Source of the DNA: Betaproteobacteria bacterium SCGC AG-212-J23
Lineage (GTDB): Bacteria; Pseudomonadota; Gammaproteobacteria; Burkholderiales; SG8-39
Assembly (NCBI GenBank): GCA_001644455.1
Contig: LSTF01000080.1
Span: forward strand, 1 to 57,114
DNA: 57,114 nucleotides
Direction of reading: 5' to 3'
Both the position numbers and the translations under genes were made by a program. Below are positions 8,664 through 28,781 of the stretch, one piece after another (positions within the stretch are counted from its first letter, which is position 1; each line of letters opens with the position of its first letter). The notes below the pieces were generated by a model. It had not been told where the DNA came from, made no database searches, and saw only the letters and a list, made by a program, of their open reading frames with translations.

Positions 8664-11195
8664 TCAGAGCTCGATGTCGACACTGCCGCTCGTGGCGGCT
8701 GCAGCCGGCGCGGCGGAGAGCGCGGCGCGCAACGCGCCGGCGAACTCCTCGCCGGTCTGGAAACGCTCCTCCGCCTTCTTCGCCAGCGCACGGCCGAGGA
8801 AAGCGACCAGGCCCGGCGGCACGCCGGCGTTCACGGTGCGAATGTCCGCCGGCGCTTCGTTGGCGATGCGGAACATGAGTTGCGCCATCGAATCGCCGTC
8901 GAACGGCAGCTGGCCGCAGAGCAGCTGGTAGCACGTGATGCCGAGCGAGAAGAGGTCCGAACGCCCGTCGACGCGGCTGCCGCTGAGCTGTTCAGGGGAC
9001 ATGTACGACGGCGTGCCGAGCACCATGCCGGTCTTGGTCTTGGAACTGGCGGTGAGGCGGGCGATGCCGAAATCGGTGAGCTTCAGGGTATCGCTTTCCG
9101 GGTTGTACATCATGTTGGCCGGTTTGACGTCGCGGTGCACGACGCCCTCGCGATGCGCGTAGCCCAGCCCGTCCGCGGCGCGTGCCACGAGCGACACCAC
9201 TTTTTCCGGCGGCAGCAGGTGTCCCTTCTTCGTGAACGGTACCAGGTCGCCGCCTTTCAGCAACTCCATGGCAATGTAGCAATAGTCATGCTCCTCGCCG
9301 GCATCGTAAATGGTGACGATGTTCGGGTGGGCGAGCTTGCCGGCGGTCTCGGCTTCGCGGAAGAAGCGCTCCTTCACGCCGGCGATCTCGTCGGCCTCGA
9401 ATTCCTGCGTCAGCGCCAGCGTCTTGATCGCCACCTCGCGACCGATCTTCGGGTCCTTGCCGAGGTAGACGACGCCCATCGCGCCCTTGCCCAGCTCCTT
9501 CTCCACCTGGAAGCGGCCGAACTTCGGCTTCTCGCCGACGTTGAGCTGCAGCGTGCCGCCCGGGTGCGATCCGCCGCCGAGGATCACGGTCTCGGAGAGC
9601 TGCTTGGCGCGGGAGCTCTTCTCCGCTACGTCGCGGAACTTGGCGTTGAACGCGTGGATATGACGGAACACCGCCTCGGCCTTGTTGAACTGGCGCTTGC
9701 GCTCGAAGTCGAGGCCCAGGTTGTAGAGATTGTCCGCCACCGCCTCCGACATCGGCACCTGGCGGAACTTGTCCCAGGCGAGGTCGAGCTGGCCCTGGCC
9801 CTGGTAGGCGAGGCCGAGCATGCGGTTCGACTCCGCCGAGCTTTCGTCGGATTTCACCTTTGCGCGCTCGGTGACGATGAAGCGCTTGCTGACCAGCGCG
9901 AGGTGGCCGACGAGCAGCAGCGTGCAGGCGCCCATCAGCTGCAGCCACACGCCCTGCACGCTCATCAGAGCGACGTGAGCCACGATCAGCGCGGCGACGC
10001 CGAACGCGGTGATGCTCGCCGCCAGCGAGGCATTGAGCCGTGGCAGCATGACCACCAGGTAAGCGATGACCAGCAGGAAGACGCCGAGCTCGACGCCGGG
10101 CGCCCAACTCGGCACGACGAAGAAATGCTCCTGCAGGATCGACGAGACCGAGTGCGCGAGGCTGAGTACCGGCGGCGTCGCCGCCGACACCGGGGTGACG
10201 AACGTGCCGGCGACGCCGGAGGCGGTGGCGCCGATGAGCACGATCTTGCCCGCGTACTTCGCCGCCGGAATCTTGCCGCTGTACACGTCGAAGAAGGAGT
10301 CGACCGGGAAGGCGGGCCGGCCGTCGCGGTCCTTGTAGAAATAGGTCTGCATCTCGAGCAGCGACTCGGAGCGGATGTTCAGCTTGCCGAGCGAAATGCC
10401 CTCGCCCGGCTGCACCTTGATGTCGCTGGGGCCGAGGTTGCGCGCTTTGGCGGCGATCATCAGCGACAGCGACGGGAAAAGCTGGTCGTAGTACTGCAGC
10501 GCCAGCGCCTCGGTGCGCACCGTGCCGTCGACGTCGAGCGGGTTGGTGAGGTGACCGATGGCGAAAGCGGCCTTGCCCAGCGGCTCGATCGGCGCCTCGA
10601 TCGCGATCGCCTGCCGCGCGACCGCGGCGCTGACCCCGCCCGGCACCGCATTGCGCGCGACGTACTCCGGCAGCGGCTTCTCCGGCTTGCCGACCGCCGC
10701 GCCGAGCTTGAAGTTCATCGGGATCACGACCTTGCCCGACTTCGCGTACGCGTCGGCAAGCTTGCGGTCGGTGTTCAGGTCCTGCTCCGCTTCCTTGAGC
10801 GTTGCGAGGATGGGGCTGTCCGGAGCTGCCGGATCCGCGGGCGGCGGCACGAGCGCCATGAGCTTGTTGATGTACCCATAGCCGCGATCGACCTGTGGCT
10901 CGGAAAGCAGCACGGTGCTGCCGATGACCTTCGGATTGGCGGCGGCGAGCTGTTCGGTCAGCTTCGCGAGTACGTCGCGCTGCCAGGGCCAGCGGCCGAT
11001 GTTGGCGATCGATGCGTCGTCGATGGCGATGACGATGATGTCGGCGTCGGGAACGCGATTGGAAGCCTGCACGCCGAGGTCGTAAGCCTTGCGCTCCAGC
11101 CCCGCCACGAGATCCGTAGCGCGGTTGAAGAAGACGAAGGCAACGACGACCGCAAGGCCGAGGAACCAGTCGGTCTTCCAGAAGCCGGATTTCAT
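8664..11195 (-). CDS. CHASE2-sensor Ser/Thr protein kinase (Pkn/Hanks type)
   Basis: 843 aa; CHASE2 (ANIGRWPWQRDV), TM helices, kinase domain LGKGAMGVVYLGKD...VAIKTL...VHRDVKPANMMYN...LTDFGIARL...GTPSYMSPEQ. Confidence 0.94.
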   Translation of the reverse strand: MKSGFWKTDWFLGLAVVVAFVFFNRATDLVAGLERKAYDLGVQASNRVPDADIIVIAIDDASIANIGRWPWQRDVLAKLTEQLAAANPKVIGSTVLLSEPQVDRGYGYINKLMALVPPPADPAAPDSPILATLKEAEQDLNTDRKLADAYAKSGKVVIPMNFKLGAAVGKPEKPLPEYVARNAVPGGVSAAVARQAIAIEAPIEPLGKAAFAIGHLTNPLDVDGTVRTEALALQYYDQLFPSLSLMIAAKARNLGPSDIKVQPGEGISLGKLNIRSESLLEMQTYFYKDRDGRPAFPVDSFFDVYSGKIPAAKYAGKIVLIGATASGVAGTFVTPVSAATPPVLSLAHSVSSILQEHFFVVPSWAPGVELGVFLLVIAYLVVMLPRLNASLAASITAFGVAALIVAHVALMSVQGVWLQLMGACTLLLVGHLALVSKRFIVTERAKVKSDESSAESNRMLGLAYQGQGQLDLAWDKFRQVPMSEAVADNLYNLGLDFERKRQFNKAEAVFRHIHAFNAKFRDVAEKSSRAKQLSETVILGGGSHPGGTLQLNVGEKPKFGRFQVEKELGKGAMGVVYLGKDPKIGREVAIKTLALTQEFEADEIAGVKERFFREAETAGKLAHPNIVTIYDAGEEHDYCYIAMELLKGGDLVPFTKKGHLLPPEKVVSLVARAADGLGYAHREGVVHRDVKPANMMYNPESDTLKLTDFGIARLTASSKTKTGMVLGTPSYMSPEQLSGSRVDGRSDLFSLGITCYQLLCGQLPFDGDSMAQLMFRIANEAPADIRTVNAGVPPGLVAFLGRALAKKAEERFQTGEEFAGALRAALSAAPAAAATSGSVDIEL

Positions 11196-11324: not shown

Positions 11325-12257
11325 TCAGCTGCCGACCAGCGCTCCGGGCTTGATCTGGCCAGCGGCGAGAAGCTCGCCGACTGCGACTTTTTTGCCATCG
11401 CCGAGCTTGGCGCGCAGCACTTCGATGCGCCCGCCTTGGGCCGTGACCTGAAAGGACTTTTCCGTCACTTCAACAACTTCGCCGATCTTGCCCTTGACCG
11501 CGCCGAAGGTGCGCACCGGGTGCTTGCGGGCGTCGAAGACTTGTAATTCCTTCCCTTCCAGGGTCGTCCAGGCGCCGGGTGCCGGATTGCAGCCGCGGAT
11601 CAGGTTGTAGACGAAATCCACATGGTTCGACCAGTTGATCTTCGCCTCGGCCTTGCGGCACCAGCCTTCGTAGGTCGCCCGCGACTCGTCCTGCACCACT
11701 TCTTTATGTTTATTGGCAACCACCAGGTCAGCCGCTTCCAGCATCGCCTTGACCCCCATCGGGAACAGGCGGTCGAAGTAGACGGTGCCAAGAGTGTCGT
11801 CCAGGCTGATCTCGGTTTCCTTCTGCAGCACCACAGGGCCTTCGTCGAGGCCGTCGTTGGGGCGGAAGATCGTCAGGCCGGTCTTGCGGTCGCCTCGGAT
11901 GATCGGCCAGTTGATCGACGACGGCCCGCGATAGAGCGGCAGCAGCGACGGGTGGTACTGGATCGTGCCCTTCTTCGGGATCGTGACGAAGTCCTGGGGC
12001 GCGAACTGCAGCACGAACGCCATGATGCCGATATCGACGTTCAGATCCTTCAGCGCCTTCTTGGCGTCGTCGCTCTTCAGGGAGGCGAATTGGAAGACCT
12101 GGACGCCTTTTTCCTGGGCCGCGACCTTCAGTGCGTCGGGCCGCGCGCCCGGCTTCTCCGGCGCGCAGAACACGCCCGCCACTTCGTCCTTGCGCGCGAG
12201 AAACGCCTCGAGGACGGCCTTGCCGAAATCCTGCTGACCGACGATGGCGATTTTCAT
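11325..12257 (-). CDS. Formyltransferase-family protein, closest by eye to the hydrolase domain of 10-formyl-THF dehydrogenase; likely not a housekeeping Fmt
   Basis: 310 aa from ATG 12257 (MKIAIVGQQDFGKAVLEAF); GTIQYHPSLLPLYRGPSSINWPIIRGDRKTGLTIFRPNDGLDEGPVVLQKE; Fmt_C-like C-terminus; TGATG overlap with frc. Confidence 0.8.
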   Translation of the reverse strand: MKIAIVGQQDFGKAVLEAFLARKDEVAGVFCAPEKPGARPDALKVAAQEKGVQVFQFASLKSDDAKKALKDLNVDIGIMAFVLQFAPQDFVTIPKKGTIQYHPSLLPLYRGPSSINWPIIRGDRKTGLTIFRPNDGLDEGPVVLQKETEISLDDTLGTVYFDRLFPMGVKAMLEAADLVVANKHKEVVQDESRATYEGWCRKAEAKINWSNHVDFVYNLIRGCNPAPGAWTTLEGKELQVFDARKHPVRTFGAVKGKIGEVVEVTEKSFQVTAQGGRIEVLRAKLGDGKKVAVGELLAAGQIKPGALVGS

Positions 12258-13528
12258 CAGGCGGCTTTCTTCGGCGGGGTGCTGAACGCCCCGGCGCTCT
12301 TCAGAGAGGAAATTTTTTCTCTTGGATAACCCAAAACCTTTTCCAGGATCTCGTCGGTGTGCTCGCCGAGCGTCGGCGAGCGCTCGATCTTCGCGGGAGA
12401 GGCGGAGAGCTTGATCGGCATGCCGACGTTCCACCACTTGCCGCGCTGCGGATGGTCGAGCTCGACCCACATGTCGCGGCCGCGCACATGCTCGTCGGTG
12501 GCGAGATCCTCGGTGCTCATGATCGGGCCGCAGGGCACGTCGAGCGGGTTGAGGATCGCCATCAGCTCGCGCTTGGTGTACTTCTCGGCGAACTTGTTGA
12601 TCAGCGTCCACATCAGGTTCTGGTTCTTGCGGCGCTCGCCGATCTTGGAGAAGCGCGGATCGGTCGCCATGTCCGGCATGCCGACGTCGGGGCCGATCCT
12701 CTTGGCGAGGTCTTCCCAGACCGCCTCCTGCACCACGACGTAGAGCCAGTCGTTGGCGCCGTGCGGCTTGCAGTGGATGGCGTTGCCGAGCTGGCCGCCG
12801 CCGGAGTCATTCCCCGCGCGCGGCACGTCGCCCATTCCCTTGTAGGTCGGCACCGAGAACTCGGAAAGCTCGCCGCGCGTCAGGCGCTGGTGGTCGCGGA
12901 ACTTGACGCGGCACAGGTTCATCACGCCGTCCATCATCGCCACCTCGACGTACTGGCCCTGCCCCGTGTGCTCGGCCTGGCGCAGCGCGCCGAGCAGGCC
13001 GATGGCGAGGTGCAGGCCGGTGCCCGAGTCGCCGATCTGGGCGCCGGTCACGAAAGGCGCACCATCAGGCACGCCCGTCGTGCTCATCGCGCCGCCCATG
13101 GCCTGCGCCACGTTCTCGTAGGCCTTGAAGTCGGAGTACGGGCCGCTCGAGCCGAAACCCTTGATCGAGCCCATCACGATCTTCGGGTTCAGCTCGTGGA
13201 TCTTCTCCCAGGTGAAGCCGAAGCGGTCGAGCACGCCCGGGCCGAAGTTCTCCATGATGATGTGGCACTTCTTCAGCAGGTCGACGAACACCTGCTTGCC
13301 CTCATTGGTCTTCATGTTCACGGTGATCGACCGCTTGTTGCAGTTGAGCATCGTGAAATAGAGCGAGTCCGCATTCGGCACGTCGCGCAGCTGGCCGCGC
13401 GTCGCATCGCCCTGCGGGTTCTCGAACTTGATCACGTCCGCGCCCATCCAGGCGAGGAGCTGAGAGCAGGTCGGGCCCGCCTGCACGTGCGTCATGTCGA
13501 GGATGCGTACGCCTTTGAGAGCTTCCAT
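12257..13528 (-). CDS. frc: Formyl-CoA:oxalate CoA-transferase (CoA-transferase family III)
   Basis: 423 aa from ATG 13528 (MEALKGVRILDMTHVQAGPTCSQLLAWMGADVIKFENPQGDATR); adjacent to oxc. Confidence 0.93.
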   Translation of the reverse strand: MEALKGVRILDMTHVQAGPTCSQLLAWMGADVIKFENPQGDATRGQLRDVPNADSLYFTMLNCNKRSITVNMKTNEGKQVFVDLLKKCHIIMENFGPGVLDRFGFTWEKIHELNPKIVMGSIKGFGSSGPYSDFKAYENVAQAMGGAMSTTGVPDGAPFVTGAQIGDSGTGLHLAIGLLGALRQAEHTGQGQYVEVAMMDGVMNLCRVKFRDHQRLTRGELSEFSVPTYKGMGDVPRAGNDSGGGQLGNAIHCKPHGANDWLYVVVQEAVWEDLAKRIGPDVGMPDMATDPRFSKIGERRKNQNLMWTLINKFAEKYTKRELMAILNPLDVPCGPIMSTEDLATDEHVRGRDMWVELDHPQRGKWWNVGMPIKLSASPAKIERSPTLGEHTDEILEKVLGYPREKISSLKSAGAFSTPPKKAA

Positions 13529-13530
13529 GG

Positions 13531-15270
13531 CTATTTCTTCTTTGCCGCGGAGGGGTTGAGGCTGGTGATGCGGCCGCTTTCCGTTCCGGCCGTTTCGTCG
13601 ATGACGGCGTTGATCAGCGTCGGCTTCTTCGAGCGGATTGCCTCCTCCATCGCCTTGCGCAGCTCGGCCGGCGTAGTGGCGTTCACGCCGACGCCGCCGA
13701 AGGCCTCCATCAGCTTGTCGTAGCGCGCGCCCTTGACGAACACGGTCGGCGCCGGATCGCGCCCGGTCGGGTCCTTGTCCGTGCCCTTGTAGACGCCGTT
13801 GTTGTTCATGATCACGATGCACACCGGCAGGTCATAGCGGCAGATGGTCTCGACTTCCATGCCGGAAAAGCCGAACGCGCTGTCCCCCTCGATCGCAATC
13901 ACCGGCTGCCTGGTCACCACCGCGGCGGCGACGCAATAGCCCATGCCGACGCCCATGATGCCCCAAGTGCCGACGTCGATTCGCTTGCGCGGCTTGTACA
14001 TGTCGACGATCGAGCGCGTGAAGTCGAGAGCGTTGGCGCCCTCGTTGACCAGCATCGCGTCCGGGTTGGCCTTGACGATGTCGCGCACCACGTTGAGCGC
14101 GCTGTGGAAATTCATCGGCGACGGATTCTTCGCCAGCGTCTCCCCCATCTTGGCGACGTTGGTGGTCTTCTTCTCGTTGATCGCGTTCAGCCATTCCGCA
14201 GGCGGCTTGGGCAAATTCCCAAGGTTGGAAAGCAGCGCGCTGACGCATGACCCGATATCGCCCACCACCGGCGCGTCGATGCGCACGTTGCTGTCGGCCT
14301 CCTGCGGCGAGATGTCGATCTGGATGAACTTCTGGCCGCCCCAGTCCTTGTGGCCCTTGCCGCCCCAGGTCTTGCCCTTGCCGTGCGAGAGCAGCCAGTT
14401 GAGGCGCGCGCCGATCAGCATTACCACGTCGGCGCCTGGAAGCACGAACGAGCGCGCCGCGGACGCACACAACTCGTGCGTATCGGGCAGCAGGCCCTTC
14501 GCCATCGACATCGGCAAATAGGGGATTCCCGTCTTCTCGACGAGATCTTTTATTTGAGCGTCCGCTTGCGCATACGCGGCGCCCTTGCCGAGGACGATCA
14601 GCGGCTTCTTGGCGGAACGCAGCAGGTCGAGCGCGCGCTTGATCGACTCCGGCGCGGGAATCTGCTTCGGCGCCGCGTCCACGACTTTGATCAGGGAATT
14701 CTTGCCGGCAGCGGCATCGATCGACTGCGCGAAGAGCTTCGCCGGCAGGTCGAGATACACGCCGCCCGGACGGCCCGACACGGCGGCGCGGATCGCGCGC
14801 GCGATGCCGACGCCGATATCGTCGGCATGCAATACGCGGAAGGCCGCTTTCGCCACGGGTTTTGCAATGGCGAGCTGGTCCATCTCCTCGTAGTCGCCCT
14901 GCTGCAGGTCGACGATCTCCCGCTCGCTCGAGCCGCTGATCAGGATCATCGGGAAGCAGTTGACCGTCGCATGTGCCAGCGCATTCAGGCCGTTCAGGAA
15001 GCCGGGCGCCGAGACGGTGAGGCAGATACCGGGCTTCTGCGTGAGAAAGCCGGCGATCGAAGCGGCGTAGCCCGCATTCTGCTCGTGGCGGAAGGACAGC
15101 ACTCGCAACCCCGCCGCCTGCGCGCGGCGCGTCAGGTCGGTGATGGGAATGCCGGGCAGGCCGTAGATCGTGTCGAGCCCGTTGAGCTTGAGGGCATCGA
15201 TCACGAGCTGAAAACCGTCGACCGTCTGCGCTTCCGATTGTGTGGCGACTTGGGGTTCCACCGTACCCAT
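13531..15270 (-). CDS. oxc: Oxalyl-CoA decarboxylase (TPP enzyme)
   Basis: 579 aa; TPP-binding region [73 protein letters not shown] upstream of ATG 15270. Confidence 0.94.
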
Positions 15271-15323: not shown

Positions 15324-15339
15324 CTTGACTGAGGTCAAG
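15324..15339. promoter_or_regulatory. Crp/Fnr-type palindrome (site 1), oxc / crp-fnr divergent region
   Basis: CTTGACTGAGGTCAAG; minus -10-like TACCAT (15300-15295), plus -10-like TAAAAT (15344-15349). Confidence 0.8.
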
Positions 15340-15362: not shown

Positions 15363-15968
15363 ATGACTTCACTCGCCAGCCACCCACAGCGCAACAGCCT
15401 GCGCCTGCAGCTCAAGCAGAACGACATGCTGCGGCGGATAACCGCCGCCCAGTGGTCGGAGCTGGAGCCGTTGCTCACCGTCGCCGACTATCGCAAGGGC
15501 GACCCGCTGGTGCGCCAGGGCGACGAGCAGATGCAGCAGTTCTTCATCCTCGACGGCATGGTGAAGCGCGTGGTCTCCAATCCCGAAGGCCGCGAGATGA
15601 TCCTGCGCTTCGCCGCGGAAACCGAGATGGATACCTCGTACGCCGCCTGGCGGCTGCGCACGCCGGTGCCCTACTCGATCGCCGCCGTCACCAAGGTGCG
15701 TACCGCGGAACTACCCATGCCCGCGTGGGCAGAGTTCATCGAGAAGCACGCCGAGATCAAGCTGCGCTTCGAGTACGAGGTGATGAAGCTGATGTCGGAG
15801 GTGATGGCGCACACCATCACGCTGCACCTGCTCGACGCGCCCGGGCGCGTGCTTCGCTTCGAGCGCAAGCACCCCGAGCTCGTCGGCCGCATCCCGAAGA
15901 AGGAGCTCGCGGCCTACCTCAACCTCACCCCGGAGACCCTTTCGCGGCTGAAGCAGCGGCTGCGCTGA
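15363..15968 (+). CDS. Crp/Fnr-family transcriptional regulator, cysteine-free
   Basis: 201 aa; cNMP-binding-like jelly roll (RKGDPLVRQGDEQMQQFFILDGMVKRVV) and C-terminal HTH with ETLSRL recognition helix; no Cys residues in translation. Confidence 0.92.
   Translation: MTSLASHPQRNSLRLQLKQNDMLRRITAAQWSELEPLLTVADYRKGDPLVRQGDEQMQQFFILDGMVKRVVSNPEGREMILRFAAETEMDTSYAAWRLRTPVPYSIAAVTKVRTAELPMPAWAEFIEKHAEIKLRFEYEVMKLMSEVMAHTITLHLLDAPGRVLRFERKHPELVGRIPKKELAAYLNLTPETLSRLKQRLR
15922..15968 (+). repeat. Crp/fnr 3'-end repeat, copy A (functional gene end)
   Basis: acctcaccccggagaccctttcgcggctgaagcagcggctgcgctga, matched by copy B at 18293-18340. Confidence 0.85.
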
Positions 15969-19162: not shown

Positions 19163-20464
19163 TTACCCCTCTCCGGTGATTCGCTTCCGGATGATGGGCT
19201 TCAGGATCAACAGGGCCATCACAGCGGCTACGATATCGAAGATCGCCGCGATGTAATAGGGCACCGAGAAGGAGCCGGCATACATTGCGGCGACCGCCGC
19301 GGCACCCCAGCCGGCCATGATGGACGCGAGCCCCTTGGCCGTGTACATGATGCCGTAGTTGCCCGAGGCGTTTTTCGGGCCGAAGACATCGCCGGTGATG
19401 GCGGAGAACAAGGCGTAGATCTCGCCCCAGGCAAGGAACACGAAGGGCATCAGGATCATGAACGCGATCGCATTGCCCGCAATCTGCGTCATCAGGAAGA
19501 TGAGCACACCCTCGAGCGCAAAGGCGAACGCCATCGTGTTCTCGCGGCCGAAGCGGTCGGACACCGTGCCCCACATGATCCGGGCGAACGCATTGGTCAC
19601 TCCCGCGAGCGTCGCCACGAACGGGACGATAGCAATCCCCATCACCTTCGCATCAAAGACGTTGAGCGATTTGGCGATCTGGGACATGTTGCCGGTCGTC
19701 ATCAGGCCGCCGGTGCACACCATGAGGAACATGGCGTACATGATGTAGAACTCTTTCTGCGACATCATCTGCACCGCGGAAAACTCCCGCCGCGTCTGCA
19801 GGACTGCCTTGGGCTGTGCCCAGTCCTTCGGCAGCCAGCCCTTGGGAGGATGATGCAGAATCATCGCCATCACGAGGGCCACCACGCCCTGGCCGATGCC
19901 CCACGCAGTCATCGCACCTGCCCATCCCATCGACGAGATGCTGCCGCTGATCGGGATGAGCGTGAGGGCCGAACCGCCGCCGAATCCGGCGGCGGTCAGG
20001 CCGGCCGCCAGGCCCCGCTTGTCCGGAAACCACTTGACCGCATTAGCCACGGTCGCGATGTAGATGATGCCGCAGCCTGTGCCAGCGAGCGCGCCGTAGT
20101 AGATATACAAGTGAAAGAGCGAAGTGGCGAACATGCCCCCGAGTACCCACCCCACAAAAATCAGCACCGATCCCACGAGCATGAGATTACGGATGCCGAA
20201 TTTATCGATGAAGTAGCCGGCAACCGGCACCGGCCAGGTCTCGAAGAGAATGAACAGCGTATAGATCAGCGCAATGTCGGAATACGGCGCGCTGGCGAAT
20301 TGTTGCTTGAGCCCCGGGGTAAATAATGTGAAGGCGTACTGGAAGTTCGAAATGACCACCATCGCCGTGACGCCCGCGGCGAGTTGAATCCAACGGTTCC
20401 CGACGATCGGACCGTAGGTTTGTTGCGCCAGATCTAGCTCAGCAGCTGTGCTCCCGTTTGCCAT
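19163..20464 (-). CDS. MFS transporter, oxalate/formate antiporter (OFA/OxlT-like) family
   Basis: 433 aa; NRWIQLAAGVTAMVVISNFQYAFTLFTPGLKQQF; about 12 TM; context with frc/oxc/fds. Confidence 0.85.
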   Translation of the reverse strand: MANGSTAAELDLAQQTYGPIVGNRWIQLAAGVTAMVVISNFQYAFTLFTPGLKQQFASAPYSDIALIYTLFILFETWPVPVAGYFIDKFGIRNLMLVGSVLIFVGWVLGGMFATSLFHLYIYYGALAGTGCGIIYIATVANAVKWFPDKRGLAAGLTAAGFGGGSALTLIPISGSISSMGWAGAMTAWGIGQGVVALVMAMILHHPPKGWLPKDWAQPKAVLQTRREFSAVQMMSQKEFYIMYAMFLMVCTGGLMTTGNMSQIAKSLNVFDAKVMGIAIVPFVATLAGVTNAFARIMWGTVSDRFGRENTMAFAFALEGVLIFLMTQIAGNAIAFMILMPFVFLAWGEIYALFSAITGDVFGPKNASGNYGIMYTAKGLASIMAGWGAAAVAAMYAGSFSVPYYIAAIFDIVAAVMALLILKPIIRKRITGEG

Positions 20465-21349: not shown

Positions 21350-23020
21350 CTAGAACAGGCCGACGACCTTGCCGTCCACCAGGTCGATCTTGTTCGCAGA
21401 CGGCACCTTGGGCAGACCCGGCATGGTCATGATGTCGCCGCAGATCATCACCACGAACTCCGCCCCGGCGGCGAGGCGCACCTCGCGCACGTTGACGACG
21501 TGGTTGGATGGCGCACCCCGCAGCGCAGCATCGGTCGAAAAGGACGACTGCGTCTTCGCCACGCACACCGGGAAGTGGCCGTAGCCGTCGTCCTGCAGCT
21601 TCTTGATCTGCCCGCGCACCTTCGCGTCGGCGGTGACTTCCGAGGCGCGGTACACCTTCTTCGCGATCTTGTTGATCTTCTCCCAGAGCGGATCGGCGTC
21701 CTCGTAGACGAAGCTCGGGCTGGACGGCTTGTCGCAGAGTCCGACCACGATCTTCGCCAGCTCGGCCGCACCCTTGCCGCCGTCGCCCCAGTGCGTGGCG
21801 GTCACCACCTGCACGCCGAGCTTCTTCATCCGCTCGGTGACGAGCTTCAGCTCCGCTTCCGTGTCGAAGGTGAACTTGTTGATCGAGACGACGCACGGAA
21901 TGCCGTAGACCTTGGAGACGTTCTCGACGTGGCGCTCGAGGTTGACCAGGCCTTTCTCCAGCGCGGCGACGTTTTCCTTCGACACTTCCTTGACGTCGAC
22001 GCCGCCGTGGTACTTCAGCGCGCGCATCGTGGCAACGATCACCGCCGCGCTCGGGCGCAGGCCGGTCTTGCGGCACTTGATGTCGAGGAACTTCTCGGCG
22101 CCCAGGTCGGCGCCGAAGCCGGCCTCGGTGACCACGTAGTCGGCGAGCTTGAGCGCGCTCTGCGTCGCCAGCACCGAGTTGCAGCCGTGGGCGATGTTGG
22201 CGAACGGCCCGCCATGGACGAAGGCCGGATTGTTCTCCAGGGTTTGCACGAGGTTGGGCGCGAGCGCGTCCTTCAGCAGGACGGTCATCGCGCCATGCGC
22301 GCTCAGGTCCTTCGCGCGGACCGGTTTCTGGTCCCGGGTGTAGCCGACGACGATATTGCCCAGCCGGTTCTTGAGGTCGTCGAGCGAGGTGGACAGGCAG
22401 AAAATGGCCATCACTTCCGAAGCGACGACGATGTCGAAACCGTCCTGGCGCGGAAAGCCGTTGGCGGTGCCGCCGAGCGCGATGGTGATGTCGCGCAGCG
22501 CGCGGTCGTTCATGTCGAGCACGCGCTTCCACTGGATGCGGCGCACGTCGATGCCGAGCTCGTTGCCGTGGCTGATGTGGTTGTCGATCAGCGCCGCGAG
22601 CAGATTGTTGGCGAGCTGGATCGCGCCGAAGTCGCCGGTGAAGTGCAGGTTGATGTCTTCCATCGGCACGATCTGCGCGTAGCCGCCGCCGGCCGCGCCG
22701 CCTTTGACGCCGAACACCGGCCCGAGCGAGGGCTCGCGCAGGCAGATGATGGCCTTCTTGCCGATATGGTTCAGCGCGTCGCCGAGTCCGACCGTGGTCG
22801 TGGTCTTGCCTTCGCCGGCGGGCGTCGGGCTGATGGCGGTGACCAGGATCAGCTTGCCGTTCTTCTTGCTCTTCAGCGTCTCGAGGTACTTCAGCGAAAT
22901 CTTGGCCTTGTAGTGGCCGTAGGGCTCGAGGTGCTCCTCGCCGATGCCGAGCCGTTCCTTCGCCACGGCGGCGATGCGCTGCATTTTCGCGGCCTGTGCG
23001 ATTTCGATGTCCGAGGGCAT
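21350..23020 (-). CDS. fhs: Formate--tetrahydrofolate ligase
   Basis: 556 aa from [70 protein letters not shown] track start (23218) is over-extended. Confidence 0.95.
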
Positions 23021-23082: not shown

Positions 23083-23098
23083 CTTGACTGAGGTCAAG
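23083..23098. promoter_or_regulatory. Crp/Fnr-type palindrome (site 2), fhs / substrate-binding protein divergent region
   Basis: CTTGACTGAGGTCAAG, identical to site 1; minus -10-like GACAAT (23060-23055), plus -10-like TACAAT (23102-23107). Confidence 0.8.
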
Positions 23099-24272: not shown

Positions 24273-27077
24273 CTAGCCGTAAATCTCGCCGAGGGAGCGG
24301 CCCTTGCCATAGCCGGGGTTGCCCGGTTGCTCGCCGCCCTTCGTCACCTTCACCGCGCAGTACTTGAACTCGGGGATCTTGCCGAACGGATCCAGCGCCG
24401 GGTTGGTGAGCATGTTCGCTGCGGCTTCGTAGAACGCGAAGGGGATGAACACCGCCCCGCGCGGGGTACCGCCGTCCTCGCGGACGAACAGCGAGATCTT
24501 GCCGCGGCGTGATTCCACGGTCGCGATCTCGCCGGCCTTGATGCCGCGCTCGCGCATGTCCTGCGGATTCATCGACACGGTCGGCTCGGGCTCGAGGGCG
24601 TCGAGGACGCCCGAGCGGCGCGTCATCGCGCCGGTGTGCCAGTGCTCGAGCTGCCGCCCGGTAATGAGCACCATCGCGTATTCGCTGTCCGGGCGCTCCG
24701 CCGCGGGAATGATGTCGGCCGGCACGAACTTGGCGCGGCCGGTCGGCGTCGGGAACACCTCGGTGAACACCACCGGCGTGCCCGCATCGCCCTCGTTCTC
24801 GCAGGGGTAGGTCACCGAGGAATCGCGCTCCAGGCGCTCCCAGGTGATGCCCTTGATCGAATCCATGCAGCCGCGCATCTCGTTGAACACTTCTCGCGGG
24901 TGTTGGTATTTCCAATCCAATCCCAGCCGTTTCCCGAGTTCCACGAGAATCCAGAAATCTTCCCTTGCCTGGCCGGGCGGCTCCACGGCCTTGCGGCCGA
25001 GCTGCACCATGCGGTCGGTGTTGGTGACCGTGCCGGTCTTCTCCGGCCACGCCGTCGCCGGCAGCACCACGTCGGCGAGGTAGGCAGTCTCGGTGAGGAA
25101 GATGTCCTGCACCACCATGTGCTCGAGCTTCGCCATGCCGGCGCGGGCGTGATCGACGTCCGGGTCGGACATCGCCGGGTTCTCGCCCATGATGTACATG
25201 CCGCGGATCTTGCCGTCGTAGGCGGCGTTGACGATCTCGACGACCGTCAGGCCCGGCTTCTTGTCGAGCGGCGTGGCCCAGAATTTCTCGAAGCGCTGGT
25301 TCGCCTCGTCGGTGTTCACGCGCTGGTAATCCGGATACATCATCGGGATCAGGCCCGAGTCGGACGCACCCTGCACGTTGTTCTGGCCGCGCAGCGGATG
25401 CAGGCCGGAGCCGGGCTTGCCCACTTGGCCGGTCATCAGGCACAGCGCGATCAGGCAGCGCGCGTTGTCGGTGCCGTGGATGTGCTGCGAGATGCCCATG
25501 CCCCAGAGGATCATCGAGCCCTTGGAGGTGGCGAAGGCGCGCGCCACTTCGCGCAAGGTCTCGGCCGGGATGCCGCAGATCGGCGCCATCAGCTCCGGCG
25601 AGTAGTTCTTGGAGTTCTCCTTCAGCGCCTCGTAGCCGCTGGTGCGGTCCTTGACGAATTTCTCATCGACCAGGCCTTCCTCGATGATCGTGTGGATCAT
25701 CGCGTTCAGCATCGCGACGTCGGTATCGGGCTTGAACTGCAGCATGCGCCAGGCGTGGCGCGACAGCTCGCTGCGGCGCGGGTCGGCGTAGATCAGCTTC
25801 GCGCCGCGCTTCGCCGCGTTCTTCATCCAGGTTGCCGCCACCGGGTGGTTCGACACCGGGTTCGCGCCGATGAGGAAGATCACTTCCGCGTTCTCGACGT
25901 CGTTCACCTGGTTCGACACCGCGCCCGAGCCGATGCCTTCCAGCAGCGCCGCCACCGACGAGGCATGGCAAAGGCGCGTGCAATGGTCGACGTTGTTGGT
26001 CTGGAAGCCGGTGCGGACCAGCTTCTGGAAGAGATACGCCTCTTCGTTCGAGCCTTTCGCCGAACCGAAGCCCGCGAGCGCGTAGCGGTCCTGGTCGCGG
26101 ATCTTCTTCAGGCCGTTGGCCGCGAAGTCGAGGGCTTCTTCCCAGGTCGCTTCGCGGAACACCTCGGTCCAGTTCGCCGGGTCGACGGTGAATGTGGCCG
26201 TCTTCGGGAACCCCGGCTTGCGGATGAGCGGCTTGGTCAGGCGCTGCGGGTGATTGGCGTAGTCGAAGCCGTAGCGGCCCTTCACGCACAGGCGGTTGTG
26301 GTTCGACGGGCCGTCCTTGCCGGTGACGAACTGGATCACGTTCTTCTTCACGTGATAGGTCAGCAGGCAGCCGACGCCGCAAAACGGGCAGACCGAGTCG
26401 ACGCGCTTGTCGATCACCTGCTTGCCGACGTCGCGAGCCGGCATCAGCGCGCCGGTCGGGCAGGCCTGCACGCACTCGCCGCAGGCGACGCAGGTCGACT
26501 CGCCCATCGGATCGTCGAAGTCGAACACGATCCGCGAATCGGAGCCGCGGCCCGCGTAGCCGATGACGTCGTTCACCTGCACTTCGCGGCAGGCGCGCAC
26601 GCAACGGGTGCACTGGATGCAGGCGTCGAGGTTGACGGCGATGGCCGGGTGCGTGAGGTCGGCCTTGGGCTGCTCGCGTTTCTTGAATCTCGGCTGGCCG
26701 ACGCCCATCTTCTTCGCCCAGTTGGCGACCTTGTTGACCTTGGTGTGCTGCTCTTCGGCCATGTCCGACATGAGCAGCTCGAGCACCATCTTCTGCGAGG
26801 TGAGCGCGCGAGGCGAATTGGTGGTGACTTCCATTCCCACGGTGGGGTAGCGGCAGCACGACGGCGCGAGAGCGCGCTCGCCCTTGATCTCGACCACGCA
26901 GGCGCGGCAGTTGCCGTCCGAGCGCTGGTTGCCGCCGTGGCAGAGGTGCGGAATCGTCACGCCGTGCTTCTTGGCGGTCTCGATGATCTTCTCGTCCGGG
27001 CGGCCGATCACCGTCTGCCCATTGAGCTTGAACTCGATGGGCATCATGGCCAGCTGCTGCGTCGTGACTCGTTCCAT
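24273..27077 (-). CDS. fdsA: NAD-type formate dehydrogenase alpha (molybdopterin) subunit
   Basis: 934 aa; NuoG-like N-terminus with 2Fe-2S and 4Fe-4S cysteines, then MopB domain; active-site region NNVDHCTRLCHASSV (Cys). Confidence 0.93.
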   Translation of the reverse strand: MERVTTQQLAMMPIEFKLNGQTVIGRPDEKIIETAKKHGVTIPHLCHGGNQRSDGNCRACVVEIKGERALAPSCCRYPTVGMEVTTNSPRALTSQKMVLELLMSDMAEEQHTKVNKVANWAKKMGVGQPRFKKREQPKADLTHPAIAVNLDACIQCTRCVRACREVQVNDVIGYAGRGSDSRIVFDFDDPMGESTCVACGECVQACPTGALMPARDVGKQVIDKRVDSVCPFCGVGCLLTYHVKKNVIQFVTGKDGPSNHNRLCVKGRYGFDYANHPQRLTKPLIRKPGFPKTATFTVDPANWTEVFREATWEEALDFAANGLKKIRDQDRYALAGFGSAKGSNEEAYLFQKLVRTGFQTNNVDHCTRLCHASSVAALLEGIGSGAVSNQVNDVENAEVIFLIGANPVSNHPVAATWMKNAAKRGAKLIYADPRRSELSRHAWRMLQFKPDTDVAMLNAMIHTIIEEGLVDEKFVKDRTSGYEALKENSKNYSPELMAPICGIPAETLREVARAFATSKGSMILWGMGISQHIHGTDNARCLIALCLMTGQVGKPGSGLHPLRGQNNVQGASDSGLIPMMYPDYQRVNTDEANQRFEKFWATPLDKKPGLTVVEIVNAAYDGKIRGMYIMGENPAMSDPDVDHARAGMAKLEHMVVQDIFLTETAYLADVVLPATAWPEKTGTVTNTDRMVQLGRKAVEPPGQAREDFWILVELGKRLGLDWKYQHPREVFNEMRGCMDSIKGITWERLERDSSVTYPCENEGDAGTPVVFTEVFPTPTGRAKFVPADIIPAAERPDSEYAMVLITGRQLEHWHTGAMTRRSGVLDALEPEPTVSMNPQDMRERGIKAGEIATVESRRGKISLFVREDGGTPRGAVFIPFAFYEAAANMLTNPALDPFGKIPEFKYCAVKVTKGGEQPGNPGYGKGRSLGEIYG

Positions 27078-27081
27078 CTCT

Positions 27082-28728
<1,647 letters not shown>

Positions 28729-28765: not shown

Positions 28766-28781
28766 CTTGACTGCGGTCAAG
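28766..28781. promoter_or_regulatory. Crp/Fnr-type palindrome (site 3), fds / racemase divergent region
   Basis: CTTGACTGCGGTCAAG (15/16 to sites 1 and 2); minus -10-like GATAAT (28744-28739), plus -10-like TATACT (28786-28791). Confidence 0.8.

Follow-up and report, generated by a model that had tools for sequence, protein, structure and literature searches.

A stand-alone formyltransferase of the ALDH1L1 hydrolase type encoded with formyl-CoA enzymes is a candidate link between the CoA and folate formyl pools

Genetic organization of the locus

The window analyzed here is a 57,114-nt stretch of DNA from Betaproteobacteria bacterium SCGC AG-212-J23, and it carries a three-gene operon for formyl-CoA metabolism on its minus strand. 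The first gene, oxc (13531..15270), encodes an oxalyl-CoA decarboxylase and scores 979 bits with the model TIGR03254 (cut-off 739). It is followed by frc (12257..13528), which encodes a formyl-CoA:oxalate CoA-transferase of 423 residues (start MEALKG; 555 bits with TIGR03253, cut-off 504). The third gene, referred to here as FT, encodes a formyltransferase of the FDH-hydrolase-like type; its open reading frame (11325..12257) runs from ATG to TGA over 310 codons. The TGA of frc and the ATG of FT have one base in common (TGATG, within ...CGCCTGATGAAAATC... on the minus strand), just as the original prediction had described.

A gene for a Crp/Fnr-like regulator (15363..15968, plus strand) is transcribed divergently from oxc-frc-FT; it matches no NCBIfam model and its type was assigned from its own sequence and the associated site. 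Further genes on the minus strand encode the oxalate/formate antiporter OxlT (19163..20464; 380 bits with TIGR04259, cut-off 335), the formate-tetrahydrofolate ligase Fhs (21350..23020; start MPSDIE; 901 bits with NF010030), and two formate dehydrogenase subunits. The latter are the alpha subunit (24273-27077; 743 bits with TIGR01591) and a NuoF-like subunit (27082-28728), the score of which with TIGR01959 (351 bits) is below the cut-off of that model.

The motif TTGACNNNNGTCAA occurs in three copies in the window, compared with 0.05 expected. The palindrome TTGACTGAGGTCAA lies between the regulator gene and oxc (15325..15338), where it is the predicted regulator site for oxc-frc-FT, and the same palindrome is present 63 nt upstream of fhs (23084..23097). 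The third copy, TTGACTGCGGTCAA, precedes the formate dehydrogenase operon by 38 nt (28767..28780). The earlier placement of fhs in the same predicted regulon is thus supported. On the basis of these shared palindromes, expression of FT is predicted to go together with that of formate dehydrogenase, Fhs, and the enzymes producing formyl-CoA.

Classification of the formyltransferase

FT contains the Pfam domains Formyl_trans_N (104 bits) and Formyl_trans_C (61 bits) and these two only. In the 86 FT proteins examined, which are 302-311 residues long and have the same two Pfam domains, no phosphopantetheine-carrier or aldehyde dehydrogenase domain was found; likewise, Pfam detected neither an ACT domain nor an enoyl-CoA hydratase-like C-terminal domain in the 310 residues of FT itself. 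The AlphaFold model (pLDDT 93.7) has the fold common to formyltransferases. As Foldseek matched structures of FDH and of methionyl-tRNA formyltransferase (Fmt) to this model about equally well (both at a TM score of ~0.82-0.92) and so did not separate them, the structural comparison was not used to decide the class of FT.

Sequence comparisons were more discriminating. In a sequence search of solved structures, the top matches were all hydrolase domains of ALDH1L1, the animal FDH (185-193 bits), followed by Fmt (138 bits), ArnA (90 bits), and HypX (37 bits); PurN and sugar formyltransferases were also among the matches. FT shares 39-42% identity with FDH over ~240 residues, compared with about 30-31% with Fmt. 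Its score with the NCBIfam fmt model (TIGR00460) is 167.2 bits, under the curated cut-off of 201.5, and it falls far under the cut-offs for ArnA, PurN, and PurU (24.9 bits with the PurU model TIGR00655, cut-off 286). The motif AGRG, which we take to mark the tRNA-binding loop of Fmt, is found in 9 of 10 Fmt sequences and in none of the 86 FT proteins.

Phylogenetic analysis, in which FDH is represented by two vertebrate sequences, placed FT and FDH in one clade with support of 96/99, rising to 100/100 once the long HypX and PurN/PurU rows were removed. Fmt formed a separate clade in both cases (99/97 and 100/100). The alternative grouping of FT with Fmt gave p = 0.061 in an AU test with the same two FDH sequences, and is hence disfavoured, though not formally rejected. 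In the host genome, a 60%-complete draft, the Formyl_trans_N domain occurs in four proteins: FT, PurN, a protein resembling ArnA, and a standard Fmt, the gene of which directly follows def on contig C68. Canonical Fmt was therefore ruled out as the identity of FT by the model cut-off, the AGRG loop, the clade, and the separate def-linked fmt. These results agree with the original prediction on several points: the reading frame and the core motifs it quoted are present, FT resembles the ALDH1L1 hydrolase domain in both its best structural matches and the tree, and it lies outside the Fmt clade in the best trees, with a separate fmt beside def. Judged by sequence, FT is a bacterial protein related to the folate-binding half of animal ALDH1L1 and mislabelled as an enzyme of protein synthesis.

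Conservation of the active site

Four residues (His102, Ser104, Asp138, Tyr196) are invariant in 86/86 FT proteins, in line with the earlier observation that the catalytic His and Asp are kept. The first three align with His106, Ser108, and Asp142 of FDH and the fourth with Tyr200. In FDH, His106-Ser108-Asp142 form the catalytic triad and Tyr200 is the product-release tyrosine (PMC4388273).

The residue two positions before the histidine differs between families. It is Gln100 in 85 of the 86 FT proteins and Cys in the remaining one, compared with Asn in Fmt, ArnA, and PurN and Ile104 in FDH; the HypX examined has Val here. The earlier description of a Gln in place of the Fmt Asn was accurate in its contrast with Fmt; the likeness to FDH does not extend to this position, which is Ile there. 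Exchange of FDH Ile104 for Asn or Ala reduces hydrolysis, and the Asn variant retains less than 10% of the hydrolase activity (PMC4388273). Because so little activity is left in that variant, the residue at FDH position 104 and FT position 100 is likely to tune the chemistry. In addition, Pro112 and Ser113 are invariant among the 86 FT proteins. Pro112 is shared with two HypX proteins (RGP[SN]ALDW) and is absent from FDH and Fmt, a match that is no more than a small clue; at locus L154, which was inspected for a second HypX, none was found.

Distribution and gene neighbourhood

A scan of species genomes identified at least 523 confirmed relatives of FT, which constitute a large, widespread, and clearly defined family beside the known hydrolase domain of FDH. 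Gene neighbourhoods were counted in the 80 highest-scoring of these at least 523 relatives, many of whose loci end at contig ends. Most of the 80 loci belong to beta- and other Proteobacteria, Methylobacterium among them, and Acidobacteriota are represented too. FT neighbours frc in 73/80 loci and oxc is present in 40/80. In 10/80, oxc gives way to a gene for a 2-hydroxyacyl-CoA-lyase-like (HACL-like) ThDP enzyme that shares 50-55% identity with its counterpart at locus L009. Homologues of mtkA/mtkB, which are serine-cycle-like genes, are near FT in seven loci, as are homologues of sga in three. On the marine plasmid pLA6_002, where FT is annotated as fmt_2, the gene order is oxc-frc-FT-fhs, and glyA and a ketopantoate reductase gene are also near FT.

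The Crp/Fnr-like regulator gene neighbours FT in 45/80 loci. All 45 loci with a divergent regulator gene contain a site TTGA[CT]N4[AG]TCAA immediately before the regulator gene, oxc, the lyase gene, or frc, and in a few loci there is one before fhs too. From these sequence patterns, an oxalate/formate/folate regulon appears to be controlled by a Crp/Fnr-like regulator, the conserved site of which is TTGAC-N4-GTCAA.

Several other features of the neighbourhoods were recorded. In the window, the gene immediately downstream of FT (8664-11195) encodes a Ser/Thr kinase, and a homologue is near FT in 42/80 related loci. The HACL-like enzyme of L009 (8643-10391) is related to 2-hydroxyacyl-CoA lyase and reaches the cut-off of none of the NCBIfam models compared; such enzymes replace oxc in frc-FT operons at L009, L032, L033, L042, L047, L050, L059, L065, L085, L086, and L091, including loci of Acidobacteriota. 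The Frc encoded beside FT is of the SGGG-loop type, with a glycine loop of Ser-Gly-Gly-Gly compared with Gly-Gly-Gly-Gly in E. coli YfdW. Loci with two nearby frc copies (L155, L156, L157, L158, L159) have one SGGG and one GGGG type per genome, and none of the GGGG-type copies found in them adjoins FT.

Co-occurrence across the order

Co-occurrence was counted in 200 genomes drawn evenly from the order, since a class-wide sample contained FT in only 4/229 genomes (E <= 1e-45); all values are raw counts in which the kinship of genomes is ignored. FT was found in 41 genomes, frc in 45, and oxc in 37. All 41 FT genomes encode frc, and 41 of the 45 frc genomes encode FT, with frc on the same strand and <=400 bp from FT in 38/41. 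By comparison, oxc is present in 34/41 FT genomes and absent from 7/41. A link to oxc as the main driver was ruled out by these seven genomes and by the 10/80 loci with a HACL-like enzyme instead. As FT stays where the lyase replaces oxc, the common factor is formyl-CoA and Frc rather than oxalate decarboxylation.

The folate ligase gene fhs is present in 37/41 FT genomes, compared with 48/159 others, and lies <=20 kb from FT in 21 of the 25 genomes with both genes on one contig. A strict partnership with Fhs is not required, given that four FT genomes have no fhs; two of these (G259, G303) are complete single-contig genomes, in which FT occurs together with PurU and two frc copies each. The panE family NF005089 is represented in 39/41 FT genomes and 30/159 others, and a member is close to FT at L009; the family is taken to include panE of the oxalyl-CoA-reductase type and may contain other ketopantoate reductases. 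PurU shows the opposite pattern, with 2/41 FT genomes compared with 106/159 others. Within fhs-positive genomes, it is found in 0/37 with FT and 12/48 without. Across the 200 genomes, fhs and purU almost exclude each other (12 with both, 73 with fhs only, 96 with purU only).

Two or more frc copies are present in 3/4 frc genomes without FT and in 3/41 with FT, and in two of the former (G345, G235) the second frc copy occupies the position of FT. These counts are suggestive of FT simply replacing a second CoA-transferase, an explanation that was rejected given that G259 and G303 have both.

Predicted function

We propose that FT, as a stand-alone FDH-hydrolase-type formyltransferase, catalyzes the exchange 10-formyl-THF + CoA <-> formyl-CoA + THF. 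This reading is drawn from gene context and is given a probability of about one half. FT has no carrier domain and is made beside enzymes that form and use formyl-CoA, so exchange between CoA and THF is the simplest reading. There is a precedent among relatives: the ALDH1L1 hydrolase domain passes the 10-formyl group to the phosphopantetheine thiol of its carrier domain, and the homologous N-terminal domain of HypX is proposed to pass it to CoA, giving formyl-CoA (PMC6802093). By analogy, FT would use the His-Ser-Asp catalysis of ALDH1L1, with the thiol of free CoA attacking the 10-formyl group in place of the carrier arm. A point against exchange is Gln100, which is neither the Asn of the transferases nor the Ile of FDH.

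The favoured direction is from 10-formyl-THF and CoA to formyl-CoA and THF. In the Frc/Oxc cycle, Frc converts formyl-CoA and oxalate to oxalyl-CoA and formate, and Oxc converts oxalyl-CoA to formyl-CoA and CO2, such that formyl-CoA is catalytic. A cycle of this kind needs a first formyl-CoA, as well as replacement of the thioester lost to oxalyl-CoA reductase (PanE) and to hydrolysis. Fhs forms 10-formyl-THF from formate, ATP, and THF. Together, Fhs and FT would then provide an ATP-driven route from formate and CoA to formyl-CoA that primes and refills the cycle of Frc and the ThDP lyase. The need for priming would persist with a 2-hydroxyacyl-CoA lyase in place of Oxc, and this would account for FT following frc rather than oxc. 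Passing the formyl group from folate to CoA is energetically somewhat unfavourable and requires a push from Fhs and ATP or a pull from Frc. An acetyl-CoA:oxalate CoA-transferase has been suggested to prime the Frc/Oxc cycle in E. coli and Acetobacter (PMC3720670).

The original prediction had also invoked formyl exchange between CoA and THF, with the aim of saving the ATP used by Fhs. Exchange is still the best explanation; the idea of a saving is weakened. Each oxalate activation needs one formyl-CoA, and so the gain vanishes on paper: every formyl-CoA drained to folate must be replaced by another thioester. For the same reason, formyl-CoA synthesis by Fhs and FT fits the stoichiometry better. 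More tentatively, FT may be the first dedicated link between the CoA and folate formyl pools, forming with Fhs a two-step ATP-dependent synthesis of formyl-CoA that starts and refills the formyl-CoA cycles of bacteria that degrade oxalate or employ 2-hydroxyacyl-CoA lyases.

Exchange in the reverse direction, from formyl-CoA to THF, is possible and nearly as likely. It would supply the serine cycle and purine synthesis with 10-formyl-THF, or yield ATP if Fhs then runs backwards. Transfer from a thioester to folate is the downhill direction, and the mtkA/mtkB and sga homologues near FT in some loci, as well as glyA and the ketopantoate reductase gene on pLA6_002, would fit such a role; G259 and G303, which have no fhs, could load THF by FT. 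However, most FT genomes already have fhs for this purpose, and formyl-CoA removed in this way must be replaced for the next oxalate, leaving no net saving of ATP. The main rival proposal is that FT hydrolyzes 10-formyl-THF, as a stand-alone FDH hydrolase domain or a substitute for PurU, which would free THF and provide formate for the co-regulated formate dehydrogenase. The closest characterized relative of FT is a hydrolase, the formate dehydrogenase operon has the same regulator site as oxc-frc-FT, and the anti-correlation with PurU is predicted by this proposal too. Most of that anti-correlation is explained by fhs: 36 of the 48 fhs-positive genomes without FT also have no PurU, so that PurU loss goes with fhs and not particularly with FT, and G259 and G303 have PurU and FT together. 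Moreover, fhs belongs to the same predicted regulon and in many cases lies <=20 kb away, and Fhs combined with a hydrolase would be an ATP-wasting cycle. FT has Gln at the position where Asn or Ala lowers hydrolysis by FDH (PMC4388273), and a plain hydrolase would have no reason to follow frc so closely. We regard hydrolysis as rather unlikely, while leaving it a substantial probability because of the contrast in PurU within fhs-positive genomes (0/37 and 12/48).

FT might instead formylate another acceptor, such as an amine, sugar, or protein, given the catalytic versatility of a family that includes ArnA, PurN, and sugar formyltransferases among the matches, or it might be a formyl-CoA hydrolase limiting overflow, as such a thioesterase would also adjoin frc. 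Both are improbable: the neighbours of FT recognized in a non-exhaustive annotation are genes of formyl-CoA, formate, and serine-cycle-type metabolism, and the folate-site motif is fully conserved in FT proteins, which a pure thioesterase would not need. Least probable is a diverged second Fmt that sits in the operon by chance, as the annotation fmt_2 on pLA6_002 would imply. The fold and domain pair are the same, Foldseek places Fmt level with FDH, and the NCBIfam fmt score reaches 167 bits. That score is nonetheless below the cut-off of 201.5, AGRG is missing from all 86 FT proteins while present in 9/10 Fmt, Gln stands for Asn, Fmt has a clade of its own, and a standard fmt adjoins def on C68; the AU test (p = 0.061) disfavours FT+Fmt, short of formal rejection.

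Formyl exchange between CoA and folate would have wider relevance. In the open literature, we found no description of the FT gene and none of a dedicated enzyme for formyl transfer between CoA and folate. While the kind of enzyme is known, and FT is annotated as Fmt in the one annotated relative seen, the proposed dedicated reaction is apparently new. The proposal bears on the source of the first formyl-CoA of the Frc/Oxc cycle and on the route of formyl-CoA carbon to folate in bacteria other than those with YfdE-type transferases. If the proposal is correct, an enzyme exchanging formyl groups between CoA and folate would be of use in synthetic one-carbon pathways starting from formyl-CoA. It would also bring the hydrolase domain of animal ALDH1L1 close to a bacterial family already working beside CoA thioesters.

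Comparison with known systems

The closest known system is the ALDH1L1/FDH hydrolase domain (PDB 1s3i, 4qpd), with which FT has in common the Formyl_trans_N and Formyl_trans_C fold, the motifs HPSLLPxxRG, GLDxG, ATYEG, and PGAW, the His-Ser-Asp triad, and the equivalent of Tyr200. FT differs in having neither the carrier nor the aldehyde dehydrogenase domain, in Gln100 for FDH Ile104, in a shorter segment after residue 60, and in its location in a bacterial operon with formyl-CoA genes. Fmt (TIGR00460) shares the two-domain fold, the triad, and ~30% identity with FT; the model cut-off, the lack of AGRG, the Gln for Asn, the clade, and the separate fmt by def set the two apart. The N-terminal domain of HypX/HoxX (PDB 6j0p) is homologous to FT and has the RGP motif before a tryptophan in common with it, but is only ~20% identical, has a modified triad and a fused enoyl-CoA hydratase-like domain, and makes CO for hydrogenase. 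The deformylase PurU has Formyl_trans_N and possibly the substrate in common with FT. It carries an N-terminal ACT domain and, unlike FT, an active-site Asn, and FT reaches 25 bits with its model against a cut-off of 286. YfdE/UctC, the acetyl-CoA:oxalate CoA-transferase suggested as a primer of the cycle, with its gene close to frc and oxc (PMC3720670), is an analogue in function only: in contrast to FT, it is an unrelated class III CoA-transferase, and folate is not involved in its reaction.
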